From a bacterium (lineage in GTDB: Bacteria; SZUA-182; DTGQ01): 17,975 nt of DNA. Positions 12,948 to 17,741 of the stretch are shown here, piece after piece (position 1 is the first letter of the stretch; each line of letters starts with the position of its first letter). The position numbers and the translations under genes are program-made. The notes under the pieces are model-generated. The model did no database searches. It was not told the DNA's origin and was given only the letters and a program-made list of their open reading frames with translations. The stretch spans positions 1 to 17,975 of the forward strand of contig JAILZY010000071.1 in the NCBI GenBank assembly GCA_023512255.1. Direction: 5' to 3'.

Positions 12948-12988
12948 AAAAAGGCCCGCTAAGATGTTCACTCTTAGCGGGCCTTTTT
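12948..12988. terminator. Strong bidirectional rho-independent terminator
   Basis: A perfect 17-bp stem (12948-12964 pairing with 12972-12988) has a GGCCCGCTAAGA core and a seven-base loop. It is flanked by A-runs on the left and T-runs on the right, so it works in both directions. It serves the plus-strand phosphoesterase and the converging minus-strand glycine-rich gene. Confidence 0.92.
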
Positions 12989-13042: not shown

Positions 13043-13109
13043 CTAATATTTCAGAACGCTAGCCACGCTAAATTTTTAAGATTAAATACTCAGAGCGCTG
13101 GCCACGCTT
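13043..13109 (-). repeat. Echo of the glycine-rich gene's 3' end
   Basis: Sequence at 13082-13109, covering the last codons and stop of the glycine-rich gene, is repeated imperfectly at 13043-13070, a 39-bp period. The downstream echo can encode SVASVLKY-stop, mirroring the genuine end SVASALSI-stop. It looks like a decayed tandem duplication of the C-terminus. Confidence 0.5.
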
Positions 13110-13792
13110 GCCAATCCAGTACTGGCCAGGCTTCCGGTACCAAGGCCAGCTAGTCCACCCAAACCACCAAGGCCGCCCATAAGTCCCAAGCCGCCTAGAC
13201 CACCTCCACCAAGCGCTCCCAAACTTCCCAAACCGAGCATTCCGCCATAGAGCCCGCCTAAGCCGCCACCCAAGCCGCCCAAGCCACCATAGAGTCCGAG
13301 TCCAGCACCGCCGAGAGCCCCTAAGCCACCAAGACCGCCGTAGAGCCCAATTCCCCCCAAGCCACCGTACATACTTCCAAGACCGCCATAGAGACCGCCC
13401 AAGCCGCCGTAGAGCCCGGCGCCGAGAGCTCCCAAGCCACCCCCCAGACCGCCATAGAGCCCACCACTGTATAGACCGCTATAGAGCCCGCCTCCATACC
13501 CACCTAGTCCACCGCCATAGTACATGCTGCCCAAGCCGCCGTAGCTCCCATAGCCGCCGTAGCCACCATAGCCTCCCAAGCCGCCGTAGAGGCCGCCTAT
13601 GCCGGTGTATGCCCGGTAATAACCAGCGTATGTAGATGGATATGATATATATCCAGGACCTCCGTATGTTGAGTAGCCCGGATACGATCCGTAAGAGGTC
13701 AATTGTGCCTGCGACAGGTGAGCGAAAATAAAAAGCCCGAAAAAAACCACCAATGAAACTACTGCCCATTTAACTTCATTCTTGAAACTCAT
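13082..13792 (-). CDS. Secreted Gly/Tyr/Leu-rich repeat protein
   Basis: The 236-residue protein opens with a clear Sec signal peptide: Lys4/Lys8, a hydrophobic core from about 10 to 24, and likely cleavage after SQA at Ala29. The mature chain is low complexity. A Tyr/Pro/Ser-rich section comes first (about 30-60), then 14 YGG triplets in patterns such as LYGGLGG, then a Gly/Leu-rich section ending in a short Ala/Ser tail. The roughly 207 mature residues contain one charged residue (Arg60) and no Cys. Such composition recalls silk- or cell-wall glycine-rich proteins and suggests self-assembly, surface coating or adhesion. No catalytic domain is visible and I do not recognise a family. AAAGG precedes ATG 13792 weakly. 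It follows a response regulator gene by 250 bp and ends at the strong terminator. Other open frames here are composition artefacts. Confidence 0.85.
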   Translation of the reverse strand: MSFKNEVKWAVVSLVVFFGLFIFAHLSQAQLTSYGSYPGYSTYGGPGYISYPSTYAGYYRAYTGIGGLYGGLGGYGGYGGYGSYGGLGSMYYGGGLGGYGGGLYSGLYSGGLYGGLGGGLGALGAGLYGGLGGLYGGLGSMYGGLGGIGLYGGLGGLGALGGAGLGLYGGLGGLGGGLGGLYGGMLGLGSLGALGGGGLGGLGLMGGLGGLGGLAGLGTGSLASTGLASVASALSI

Positions 13793-13865
13793 ACTCTCTA
13801 ACCTTTCATCTCTCTGCTCTTCAAGTTTTTTCTGAGGAGATTAAGTATTTTAACTTATAATAACT

Positions 13866-14042: not shown

Positions 14043-14408
14043 CTATTGTGCCTCGATGGTCTCAATAATCTGATCTAGCACTTGAAACATCTGACTATTT
14101 TTCCTGACGCATTCATAGGCACCAAGTTCCTTGGCCATGGAAATGTTGTTTTGGTCAAGATAAGAAGAAACCATAATTATCTTCATCTCAGATGAGATCT
14201 GCCTGGCGATCTTTAGAAGATCAAGTCCCTCGATATCATTGAGGTGAAGATCAAGTAACATAAGATCGAATTGGCCGGTGTTTATTTTTTCCTGAAATTC
14301 TTGATAACATGTGCTTATTTCAACCTCATAACCCTTATTGAGGAGATGATACCTCAGAGCATTACAGAGAATAAGCTCATCATCAACAATTAAAATTCTA
14401 TTAATCAT
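14043..14408 (-). CDS. Single-domain response regulator (CheY-like)
   Basis: The 121-residue protein is a stand-alone receiver domain. The acidic pair is Asp9/Asp10, the phosphoacceptor Asp53 is in LMLLDLHL, the Ser81 switch residue is in MVSSY, and Lys103 is in CVRKNS. There is no output domain, so it would act by protein contact, in a phosphorelay, or as a phosphate sink. It is on the same strand as the NtrC-type regulator and histidine kinase, about 600 bp away. A sigma-54-like promoter lies about 100 bp before its ATG, which suggests control by that neighbouring activator. The ribosome site (TAGGGT) is weak. Confidence 0.9.
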   Translation of the reverse strand: MINRILIVDDELILCNALRYHLLNKGYEVEISTCYQEFQEKINTGQFDLMLLDLHLNDIEGLDLLKIARQISSEMKIIMVSSYLDQNNISMAKELGAYECVRKNSQMFQVLDQIIETIEAQ

Positions 14409-14509: not shown

Positions 14510-14526
14510 TGCATTTATCAGGCCAA
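14510..14526 (-). promoter_or_regulatory. Sigma-54-like promoter of the receiver gene
   Basis: The minus strand reads TTGGCCTGATAAATGCA. GG and GC are exactly ten bases apart, as in the -24/-12 promoter consensus YTGGCACGRNNNTTGCW, with three mismatches at informative positions. Transcription would begin about 90 bases before ATG 14408. A sigma-54 activator gene lies nearby. Confidence 0.5.
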
Positions 14527-14981: not shown

Positions 14982-15024
14982 GAAATCTACGGGAGGTCGG
15001 TGGAGGGAAATCTACGATAGGTCG
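14982..15024 (-). repeat. 25-bp tandem duplication over the NtrC-type gene's stop
   Basis: GAAATCTACGGGAGGTCG (14982-14999) and GAAATCTACGATAGGTCG (15007-15024) repeat with a 25-bp period. The right copy contains the regulator's TAG stop and the left copy duplicates it downstream. Confidence 0.6.
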
Positions 15025-16427
15025 CCCTCAAGGCTGGCCAGCTTTCGAAAGAGGGTAGAGCGACCGATCCCAAGCAGTTTGGCGGCCTGTTCCTTATTAC
15101 CACCAGCTTGCTTTAGGGCCTTGAGAATATGAGCTTTCTCCATTTCAGCCAAGGTCAGAAACTTCTCTGGCTGCTGCGTTGGCTGATCAGCTTCGGCAGG
15201 CTGAAGATAAGCTGAGGTGTCGTCAGTTAGTATCGGTTCAGCAAAAAACATCTCCCCCTTAGGAAAGTGGAGAGAGCTTGGAGTGATCAGCTCACTATCT
15301 TCGATAATCATAGCTCGCTCGATGATATTTTTTAACTCTCTGATATTTCCGGGATAGGTATAATTAACCAAAAGCTGAGCCGCCTGCTGATTGAACCCTT
15401 GAATATTTAGGTGAAGTTTTTGATTAAACCTTTGGATAAAAAAATTGGCCAAGGGCATAATGTCTTCTTTGCGCTCTCGGAGTGGCGGGATGGTGATGGG
15501 AAACACATTTAGCCGGTAGAAGAGATCCTCCCTGAATTCACCCCGGCTGACCTTTTTAGCCAAGTCTCGGTTTGTGGCCGCGATTATTCGGATATCCACT
15601 TGGCGGTCAATTGTACTTCCAATTCTTCGGAAGGTTCGCTGTTCAAGGAAACGAAGCAGCTTAGCCTGCACGGAAAGATTCAGAGTAGCGATTTCATCCA
15701 GAAACAAGGTTCCGCCATCAGCTAGCTCAAGCAAACCCTGTTTTGCGCTCTTGGCATCGGTGAAGGCTCCCTTTTCGAATCCAAAGAGCTCACTCTCAAC
15801 CAGGGAATCGGGCAGAGATGAACAGCTAATATCAATAAAGGCTTTTTCTGGATTAGGGCTGAGGTTGTGGATTGTCCTGGCTACTACCTCCTTTCCCGTG
15901 CCGCTTTCTCCGATAATGAGTACCGTGCTGTGCTCTTTTTGGGCTATCTTTTCAATTAATTGATAAACCAGCCTCATCGGCGAGCTTTCCGTAACCAGGC
16001 AATATTGATTTATTCTCTCCTGGGTCTGCCTCTTTAAGAGAGCATTCTCTTTGGCCAGGCTAGCGGTTTTGAGGGCTTTTTTAGCCACCAGTTGCACCGC
16101 TTCTTCCATATCTGAGGATTTAATCAGATAATCATCAGCTCCATGCTTCATGGCCCAAATCGCATCGTGGATATCCTGCGAGGCAGTTAGAATGACTACC
16201 TGAAGATCGGGATAATCAGCCTTGATCCCTTCCAGGGTTTGAAAACCATCGAGTCCAGGCATTGAAAGATCGAGCAATACCAGGTCAAACTCTTCCCTCT
16301 TGAGTACCCGCATAGCATCTTCCCCGCTGTGGACAACAAATCCTAGGAAACCCTCAGATTCAAGGCATCGACTTAAACTCCTAGCCATTAAATGATCATC
16401 ATCAACAATGAGAACCCTATAGGCCAT
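15012..16427 (-). CDS. NtrC-family sigma-54 response regulator
   Basis: The 471-residue protein has the three-part NtrC/AtoC layout. A receiver domain comes first (Asp9-Asp11, phosphoacceptor Asp53, Lys103). A central AAA+ domain has Walker A GESGTGKE (173-180), the sigma-54 contact loop GAFTDA (220-225) and Walker B LFLDE (241-245). A C-terminal Fis-type helix-turn-helix reads NKEQAAKLLGIGRSTLFRKL. The loop is GAFTDA rather than canonical GAFTGA, a variant seen in some activators. A Gln/Thr-rich linker precedes the HTH. It would bind upstream sites and drive open-complex formation at -24/-12 promoters after phosphorylation, very likely by the adjacent kinase. TAGGAT before ATG 16427 supports the start. 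A 210-bp AT-rich gap with a MITE-like element separates it from the kinase. Confidence 0.95.
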   Translation of the reverse strand: MAYRVLIVDDDHLMARSLSRCLESEGFLGFVVHSGEDAMRVLKREEFDLVLLDLSMPGLDGFQTLEGIKADYPDLQVVILTASQDIHDAIWAMKHGADDYLIKSSDMEEAVQLVAKKALKTASLAKENALLKRQTQERINQYCLVTESSPMRLVYQLIEKIAQKEHSTVLIIGESGTGKEVVARTIHNLSPNPEKAFIDISCSSLPDSLVESELFGFEKGAFTDAKSAKQGLLELADGGTLFLDEIATLNLSVQAKLLRFLEQRTFRRIGSTIDRQVDIRIIAATNRDLAKKVSRGEFREDLFYRLNVFPITIPPLRERKEDIMPLANFFIQRFNQKLHLNIQGFNQQAAQLLVNYTYPGNIRELKNIIERAMIIEDSELITPSSLHFPKGEMFFAEPILTDDTSAYLQPAEADQPTQQPEKFLTLAEMEKAHILKALKQAGGNKEQAAKLLGIGRSTLFRKLASLEGDLS

Positions 16428-16638: not shown

Positions 16639-17724
16639 TCATGAGCAGGCAGGGATGGTTATCCTGACGGTAGTCCCTTTCCCTTCTTGGCTCTGGATGC
16701 TGATCGAGCCATGGTGAAGCTCTATTATCTTGAAGGCAATCGATAGTCCAAGGCCTGTCCCCTGGGATGACTTTGAAAAAAACGGATCAAATACGTATGG
16801 CAGATCTTCCTCTTTAATGCCAACGCCATTGTCCTGAATGATTACCTGCACCCTCTGGCCCTGTCTAGCAGCAGGCTCACCAGCAGGCAGGAGAGCAGTT
16901 TGGACAGTAATTTCACCTCCCCCTGGCATGGCAGCTATGGAATTGAGAAGGATATTAAAGAAAACCTGCTGCATTTTCGCCGAATCGATCATGACCTTCG
17001 GAGCTTTTGGGTCGTAGATTTTCCTGATCTTGATCCTCCCTGAGCTCAATTTTTTGCTTAGCAGGCTCAAGGTATTGTCGAGCGGCTGATGGATATGAGC
17101 CTTCTTTATGACAAATGGGCTTGGTTTAGCAAAATTCATGAGGCTTTCAAGCAGACCTTCTAGCCGATGGACCTCATGCAATATGCTCTCAAGATCTTGG
17201 TAGAGCGCATCTTTTTGATTCAAGCGCTCCATAACCGATACCGTCATCAGACCAATACCAGCCAGGGGATTTTTAATTTCATGGACGATAGAGGAGGCTA
17301 GCTCGCCCATAATTTTCAATCTCCCCTGATGCTGGATTTCCTGTTGCATTTTCAACTCCCCGGTGATAACCCGACCGATCTCAAATACTCCCTGAAGCGC
17401 TCCATGGTCATCATAGATGGGATGTCGGGTGATTAAGACCTCATCATTTCCAAGAGAGATAACCAATTTCTCAGCCGGATCGTTTCCGACCCAGCTGTGG
17501 AGCAGAGGACAATCTTCACACGGCTCATGCCGATTCCGTACAATCGCATAGCACTTGTTTCCAATACACTCATCAGCAGATTTATTCAATAATTTCTCAT
17601 AAGCCTTATTGACCATCAAAATAGTGTAATCAGTATCGATCAGAGATACAATATCGACCACTCCGTAGAAGATACCTTTAAATTTATCCTTGTAATCCAT
17701 ACCCTCTAAACCCACCCAATCCAT
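16639..17724 (-). CDS. PAS-domain sensor histidine kinase
   Basis: The protein is about 361 residues and soluble, with no membrane segment. A PAS domain (about 15-120) includes a Cys cluster reading ECIGNKCYAI and EPCEDCPL, of a type seen in redox- or ligand-sensing PAS domains. The dimerisation helix has the phospho-His in SSIVHEIKNPLAGI. The ATPase domain has the N box ILLNSIAAMPGGGE, DNGVGI, FDPFFSKS and GTGLGLSI. It likely phosphorylates the NtrC-type regulator encoded just downstream and perhaps the stand-alone receiver. The start is unclear: a 24-bp tandem repeat duplicates the start region, giving in-frame ATG 17700, ATG 17724 and GTG 17739. None has well-spaced Shine-Dalgarno sequence, and 17724 is a compromise. 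Confidence 0.93.
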   Translation of the reverse strand: MDWVGLEGMDYKDKFKGIFYGVVDIVSLIDTDYTILMVNKAYEKLLNKSADECIGNKCYAIVRNRHEPCEDCPLLHSWVGNDPAEKLVISLGNDEVLITRHPIYDDHGALQGVFEIGRVITGELKMQQEIQHQGRLKIMGELASSIVHEIKNPLAGIGLMTVSVMERLNQKDALYQDLESILHEVHRLEGLLESLMNFAKPSPFVIKKAHIHQPLDNTLSLLSKKLSSGRIKIRKIYDPKAPKVMIDSAKMQQVFFNILLNSIAAMPGGGEITVQTALLPAGEPAARQGQRVQVIIQDNGVGIKEEDLPYVFDPFFSKSSQGTGLGLSIAFKIIELHHGSISIQSQEGKGTTVRITIPACS

Positions 17725-17741
17725 ATCCTCTAAACCCACAC
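17694..17741 (-). repeat. 24-bp tandem duplication of the kinase start region
   Basis: Two 24-bp units (17694-17717 and 17718-17741) differ at two positions. On the minus strand each contains GGGTTTAGAGG followed by ATGGATT. Because 24 is divisible by three, the duplication is in frame and adds eight residues or a second start. Confidence 0.75.

Follow-up and report, generated by a model that had tools for sequence, protein, structure and literature searches.

Features of the locus

The window, by which we mean the whole 17,975-nucleotide stretch of DNA that was analyzed, carries on one strand a block of four genes: a soluble PAS histidine kinase, an NtrC-type regulator, a stand-alone receiver domain (REC) and, last in the block, a small silk-like secreted protein (Table 1). 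The start of the kinase gene is probably closer to 17697. We compared five genomes of the order, among them the window's own 3.8-Mb genome (G000), a congener (G001) and a member of the same family (G003).

Table 1. Positions of the genes and sequence features identified in the window
Feature	Position	Strand	Remarks
Intrinsic-terminator-like hairpin downstream of silk-like gene	12948..12988	-	17 pairs, T tail
Decayed copy of the silk-like CDS 3' end, past the stop	13051..13069	-	source 13090-13108; 17/19 identical
Silk-like secreted protein CDS	13082..13792	-	ATG start, 236 aa; orthologue in G001:C30 (L030 8167-8754)
Mature low-complexity region	13085..13705	-	207 aa, G/L/Y-rich; R60 sole charge
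Signal peptide, residues 1-29, MSFKNEVKWAVVSLVVFFGLFIFAHLSQA	13706..13792	-	called by eye
Ribosome-binding leader, GAGGTTAAAGAGTATG type	13793..13807	-	conserved in paralogues
Stand-alone REC, upstream of silk-like gene	14043..14408	-	Pfam PF00072; orthologues L030 74%, L034 60%
Sigma-54 (-24/-12) promoter candidate, TGGCCTGATAAATGCA	14510..14525	-	16 bp; upstream of REC and silk-like gene
NtrC/AtoC-type sigma-54-dependent response regulator	15012..16427	-	Pfam REC, Sigma54_activat, HTH_8; syntenic orthologues 79%, 70%
Soluble PAS histidine kinase	16639..17739	-	Pfam PAS_4, HisKA, HATPase_c; orthologues 77%, 63%

Residue counts bore out the original prediction of a signal peptide followed by 207 residues with 14 YGG triplets and Arg60 as the sole charge. 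The signal peptide contains K4, E6, K8 and H25, and R60 is the only charged or histidine residue in the mature part, which is made up of G92 L40 Y27 S16 A12 T6 I4 M4 P3 Q1 R1 V1 (44% Gly, 19% Leu and 13% Tyr). When the 24% of charged residues in nine neighboring proteins was taken as the reference rate, the binomial probability of one charge or fewer in 207 residues was ~2e-23. The YGG triplets are accompanied by an equal number of LGG triplets, and the predicted gradient was also present, with 11 Tyr and 3 Pro among the first 40 mature residues and a drift from a Tyr/Ser/Pro-rich to a Gly/Leu-rich composition. Glycines recur with a weak period of 3 (autocorrelation 0.29), and tyrosines in a paralogue with YGGL repeats show periods of 4 and 7. 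Synonymous codons vary across the YGG and LGG repeats, indicating that the protein repeat has been maintained while the DNA diverged. A secretion signal and low-complexity Gly-rich repeats are thus both present, as in silk-like self-assembling materials. AlphaFold, run on the single sequence, modeled the signal helix (residues 3-34) with high pLDDT and the remainder with low confidence (mean pLDDT 54); the helices that it placed within the repeats were disregarded because of their low pLDDT. The protein had no match in Pfam or NCBIfam, nor did a phmmer search of PDB sequences return one at E ≤ 1.

A decayed duplication at the 3' end of the gene had been taken as a sign of growth by repeat expansion. 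The duplication itself held up, as its match score was reached by 0 of 2000 shuffles. However, the duplicated stretch consists of C-terminal codons outside the YGG repeats, and the G001 orthologue lacks the end that was copied; the duplication is therefore no direct evidence on how the repeat array grew. Repeat expansion is supported instead by copy-number differences among orthologues and paralogues. The hairpin further downstream is the sole terminator-like site in the scanned stretch, with none between the REC gene and the silk-like gene; such hairpins are expected by chance here (shuffle mean 1.5), and the stem length and location of this one fit a terminator.

The silk-like gene is under purifying selection

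The frame is of low complexity and lacks Pfam and NCBIfam matches, as might be seen if a GC-rich repeat were open by chance and encoded nothing. The congeneric orthologue, however, is identical at 125 of 182 aligned residues, with a dN/dS of ~0.33 over the 182 aligned codons (synonymous sites near saturation); a second orthologous pair (G000:C161 and G001:C13) gave 0.26, and the values for both pairs depend on the alignment of the repeats. For the signal region alone (30 residues) of the window's orthologue pair, dN/dS was 0.29. The alignment of paralogues and orthologues showed a conserved signal-peptide motif, MSxKNxVK...FGLF...AQ, and the relatives vary in length. A GAGGTTAAAGAGTATG-type leader precedes the start codon, with small variations, in seven of the eight members compared from three genomes, which points to shared descent rather than convergent composition. 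These observations, together with the promoter candidate and the synteny described below, refute a spurious frame, an explanation that we regard as scarcely credible. We conclude from the sequence comparisons that the ORF is a real gene under purifying selection.

A family of Gly/Tyr-rich secreted proteins within one order

The window's own genome contains at least 24 Gly/Tyr-rich ORFs, almost every one with a discernible signal peptide, and at least two further members (L175 and L176) can be added to them; the gene count, which comes from pattern and profile matches at own-genome loci, is a lower bound. A 61-position N-terminal profile found clear relatives in all five order genomes (E 1e-29 to 1e-7), so that the outcome named in advance as telling against the original prediction, that no relative encodes a comparable protein, did not materialize. 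Its expectation that such a protein is unusual in bacteria was likewise upheld. A search of genome contigs with the entire low-complexity protein returned no relative, probably since matches of such low complexity fail tblastn confirmation. A DNA pattern encoding YGG(hydrophobic)(G/Y)GG had 77 matches in the window's own genome (0 in the reversed control), 80 in the congener and 6 to 32 in the other three order genomes, versus at most two in each of the 285 non-order genomes of a 290-genome survey. In one order genome, G002, the reversed control was also raised (32 vs. 13).

A C-terminal domain of ~115 aa with the motif GxWxGxW is present in 13 of the 24 members in the window's own genome. In the five order members its profile detected 20, 24, 7, 4 and 6 copies, and in the other 55 genomes searched it detected 0; comparison of the paralogues' domain with Pfam, NCBIfam and PDB sequences gave no match. 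The window protein has the (Y/L)GG and YGGL-type repeats and the signal motif typical of the order-specific family and lacks the C-terminal domain, which places it in the domain-less subfamily; its own Gly content is extreme. Across the genomes surveyed, this Gly/Tyr-rich secreted repertoire is confined to one bacterial order.

A conserved two-component block with a sigma-54 promoter candidate

The four-gene block is kept in three genomes, namely that of the window, the congener (L030) and the same-family genome (L034), while the genes flanking it differ. The promoter candidate agrees with the consensus at 9 of the 12 positions scored. It recurs identically at G001:C30:65572-65587 and as TGGCATAATAAATGCT at G002:C141:7499-7514, in both cases before the same gene pair, and a search of five whole genomes with the shared pattern gave only one further match (G000:C93:9211-9226). 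Since rpoN is also present in the window's own genome, every sequence feature of a sigma-54-dependent operon was found, namely a -24/-12 candidate, an enhancer-binding activator and the sigma factor gene. Among 44 family genes, 5 are preceded by sigma-54 sites scoring at least 10/12, versus 0.6% in shuffles (p ~6e-6, an optimistic value because paralogues are not independent). The silk-like gene lies 250 bp from the REC gene, a gap that leaves room for a promoter of its own.

Four cysteines in the kinase PAS domain (C44, C49, C60 and C63 in aligned numbering) are invariant across the three genomes, making the domain a possible redox or metal sensor. Taken with the 27 tyrosines among the 207 mature residues, these cysteines would suit a Tyr-rich matrix dedicated to a particular physical function, for instance cell-to-cell electron hopping or the binding of metals or minerals, and placed under redox control by the kinase. 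The protein, though, has no haem- or metal-binding residues, and no result here links its tyrosine content to conduction. We consider such a function very improbable.

Gene neighborhoods and export

Secreted S8 subtilases adjoin or lie near family genes at five loci (G000:C58, G000:C160, G001:C13, G002:C7 and G003:C345). At the first of these (L152 8482-10704), a PilZ-domain protein and a sigma-54 activator also lie beside two silk-like genes, and both have counterparts at G003:C345 (L043). The PilZ neighbor suggests that part of the family may be under c-di-GMP control, and a subtilase accompanied by PilZ and sigma-54-activator neighbors is what would be expected of a regulated surface material. 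At G002:C204, the neighbors are a sulfatase-TPR protein and a SurA-like PPIase.

No dedicated outer-membrane exporter is adjacent to the silk-like gene, and only a Sec-type signal is visible in the protein. It might therefore be exported and then retained in the envelope, as a periplasmic or outer-membrane-associated hydrophobic filler or coat rather than an extracellular fiber, sheath or cement. Two GspD-type secretins scored over the cut-off, however, indicating that type II export is available, and the large set of paralogues and the subtilase and PilZ-domain neighbors fit a surface or secreted material better. Retention in the envelope is for these reasons an unlikely explanation, although the most plausible of the alternatives that we weighed. 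A curli-type system, with CsgA-type repeats and a CsgG exporter next to the gene, was not recognized, as the protein has no Pfam match and CsgG gave only two borderline matches, on another contig (G000:C10). A search for tyrosinase, a cross-linking candidate, returned no match, but control genomes gave none either.

Proteins with an N-terminal sulfatase domain and C-terminal TPR repeats recur near silk-like genes (L040 1975-4539, L031 1481-4090 and L039 1429-4026), and a role for them in modifying surface material is possible. Separately, a domain-less paralogue at G000:C161 (L028 10295-11116) lies near a cell-division cluster of ftsZ, ftsA and mur genes (names assigned by eye), and its G001 copy (L032) has another neighborhood.

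Comparison with known systems

The family's genome organization appears most like that of the mycobacterial PE_PGRS proteins and its chemistry most like that of animal glycine-rich silks and cements; homology to either was not detected. PGRS repeats take the form GGA/GGX, whereas the silk-like repeats are YGG/LGG, with Tyr and Leu. PE_PGRS proteins carry a PE domain and use type VII export, in contrast to the ordinary Sec-type signal peptide here; a Pfam search found no PE domain in the silk-like protein, and the tests run detected no homology. The likeness is that both families are lineage-specific, secreted, Gly-rich and repeat-variable with a conserved N-terminus, PE_PGRS forming a large set (PMC7550000). 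Mycobacteria are known to have a surface protease acting in the processing of type VII substrates (PMC6819658), and subtilases lie beside family genes here. A multicopy family of this kind, rich in Gly, variable in length, conserved at the N-terminus and associated with proteases, could follow the same logic, the protein being a variable low-complexity display or contact surface for cells, phage or minerals and not a bulk material. Several observations speak against this: neither PE nor another known display domain was found by Pfam, the orthologues keep their composition and place at a dN/dS of ~0.3 with no diversifying pattern seen, and the folded-looking domain carried by over half of the counted members is absent from the window protein. 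A display surface is accordingly improbable, more so than retention in the envelope.

Animal silks, eggshell proteins and shell-matrix glycine-rich proteins are Gly-rich, with short Tyr/Leu repeats after a signal peptide. The window protein resembles them by convergent composition, but it is bacterial, far shorter and not homologous to them. Silk-like metazoan proteins are surveyed in PMC4944945. A tick cement glycine-rich protein (PMC11794139) is secreted, disordered and Gly-rich with periodic aromatics and Arg, phase separates, ages to a gel and adheres. The likeness lies in a Gly-rich secreted chain with aromatics, a kind of sequence that can phase separate and gel; the tick protein, however, is from an animal and not homologous, and Arg together with aromatics drives its phase separation, whereas the window protein has a single Arg. 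The Methanospirillum sheath amyloid (PMC6242892), an extracellular prokaryotic protein that assembles into a tubular sheath, resembles the window protein in proposed role only, as a functional model.

A literature search for bacterial silk-like or Gly/Tyr-rich matrix proteins, which covered few subscription journals, returned only animal, materials, mycobacterial and unrelated papers. Since there is neither a Pfam, NCBIfam or PDB match nor homology to PE_PGRS or animal silks, this previously unnamed family appears to be a new, order-specific form of secreted glycine-rich structural protein.

Proposed mechanism

We propose, with a probability of about 0.62, that the window protein is secreted, associates with itself and serves as a structural component of a matrix, sheath or cement, and that it is made on demand through a two-component, sigma-54-dependent system. 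The selected gene, its export signal, the order-restricted expansion of its family, the conserved regulatory block and the promoter candidate are read directly from the DNA; from them we infer co-transcription, passage of the outer membrane, self-assembly and the role of the material. Composition, export signal, family expansion and neighbors together suggest that the protein may self-assemble and may have a sheath or adhesive role.

In the proposed sequence of events, the PAS kinase would phosphorylate the adjacent NtrC-type regulator, which would drive sigma-54 transcription from the promoter candidate through REC into the silk-like gene. The product would be exported by Sec, lose its signal peptide and cross the outer membrane, for instance through the type II machinery present in the genome. 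The mature charge-free Gly/Leu/Tyr chain would be disordered or adopt a glycine-rich extended form (polyglycine-II- or beta-like) and would associate with itself, and probably with paralogues too, by stacking of Tyr, contacts between Leu residues and hydrogen bonding of the backbone, ending as an insoluble extracellular or cell-surface material.

More tentatively, and at somewhat less than even odds, the whole order may build extracellular structures from a dedicated set of silk-like proteins that evolved independently. The set, numbering at least two dozen genes in each genome of this genus, would have a capping domain and maturation proteases of its own and would be controlled by a sigma-54 two-component system. 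If true, the order would possess a bacterial equivalent of the silks or cements of animals. Silk-like bacterial proteins have rarely been described; in this uncultivated order they occupy dozens of genes per genome, accompanied by recognizable regulation and linked proteases. The genes could serve as a marker of matrix or sheath formation in the order and as a test case for the independent evolution of Gly/Tyr-rich structural proteins, and they offer natural short silk-like sequences for materials work.

Other secreted proteins in the order

Several further secreted proteins came to light during the survey. A 1,084-aa secreted protein of the window's own genome (G000:C122, L154 3243-6497) has HYR-like repeats (recognized by eye) and a short YGGLYGGIFGGLYG tail, as though a silk-like repeat had been joined to an adhesin-like protein. 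Five tandem secreted paralogues of about 185-195 aa at G000:C62 (L159 633-3899) share the motif (L/M)PPYN(I/V)LWPLWSP, and the congener has two copies (G001:C30, L029 8197-9465); these proteins make up another secreted family that is specific to the lineage and not related to the YGG family. At G002:C34 (L041 2890-16548), approximately nine secreted low-complexity proteins are encoded on one strand, one of them with a signal peptide of the window type, and CGGCATTAAATTTGCT occurs there three times, each time upstream of a different gene.
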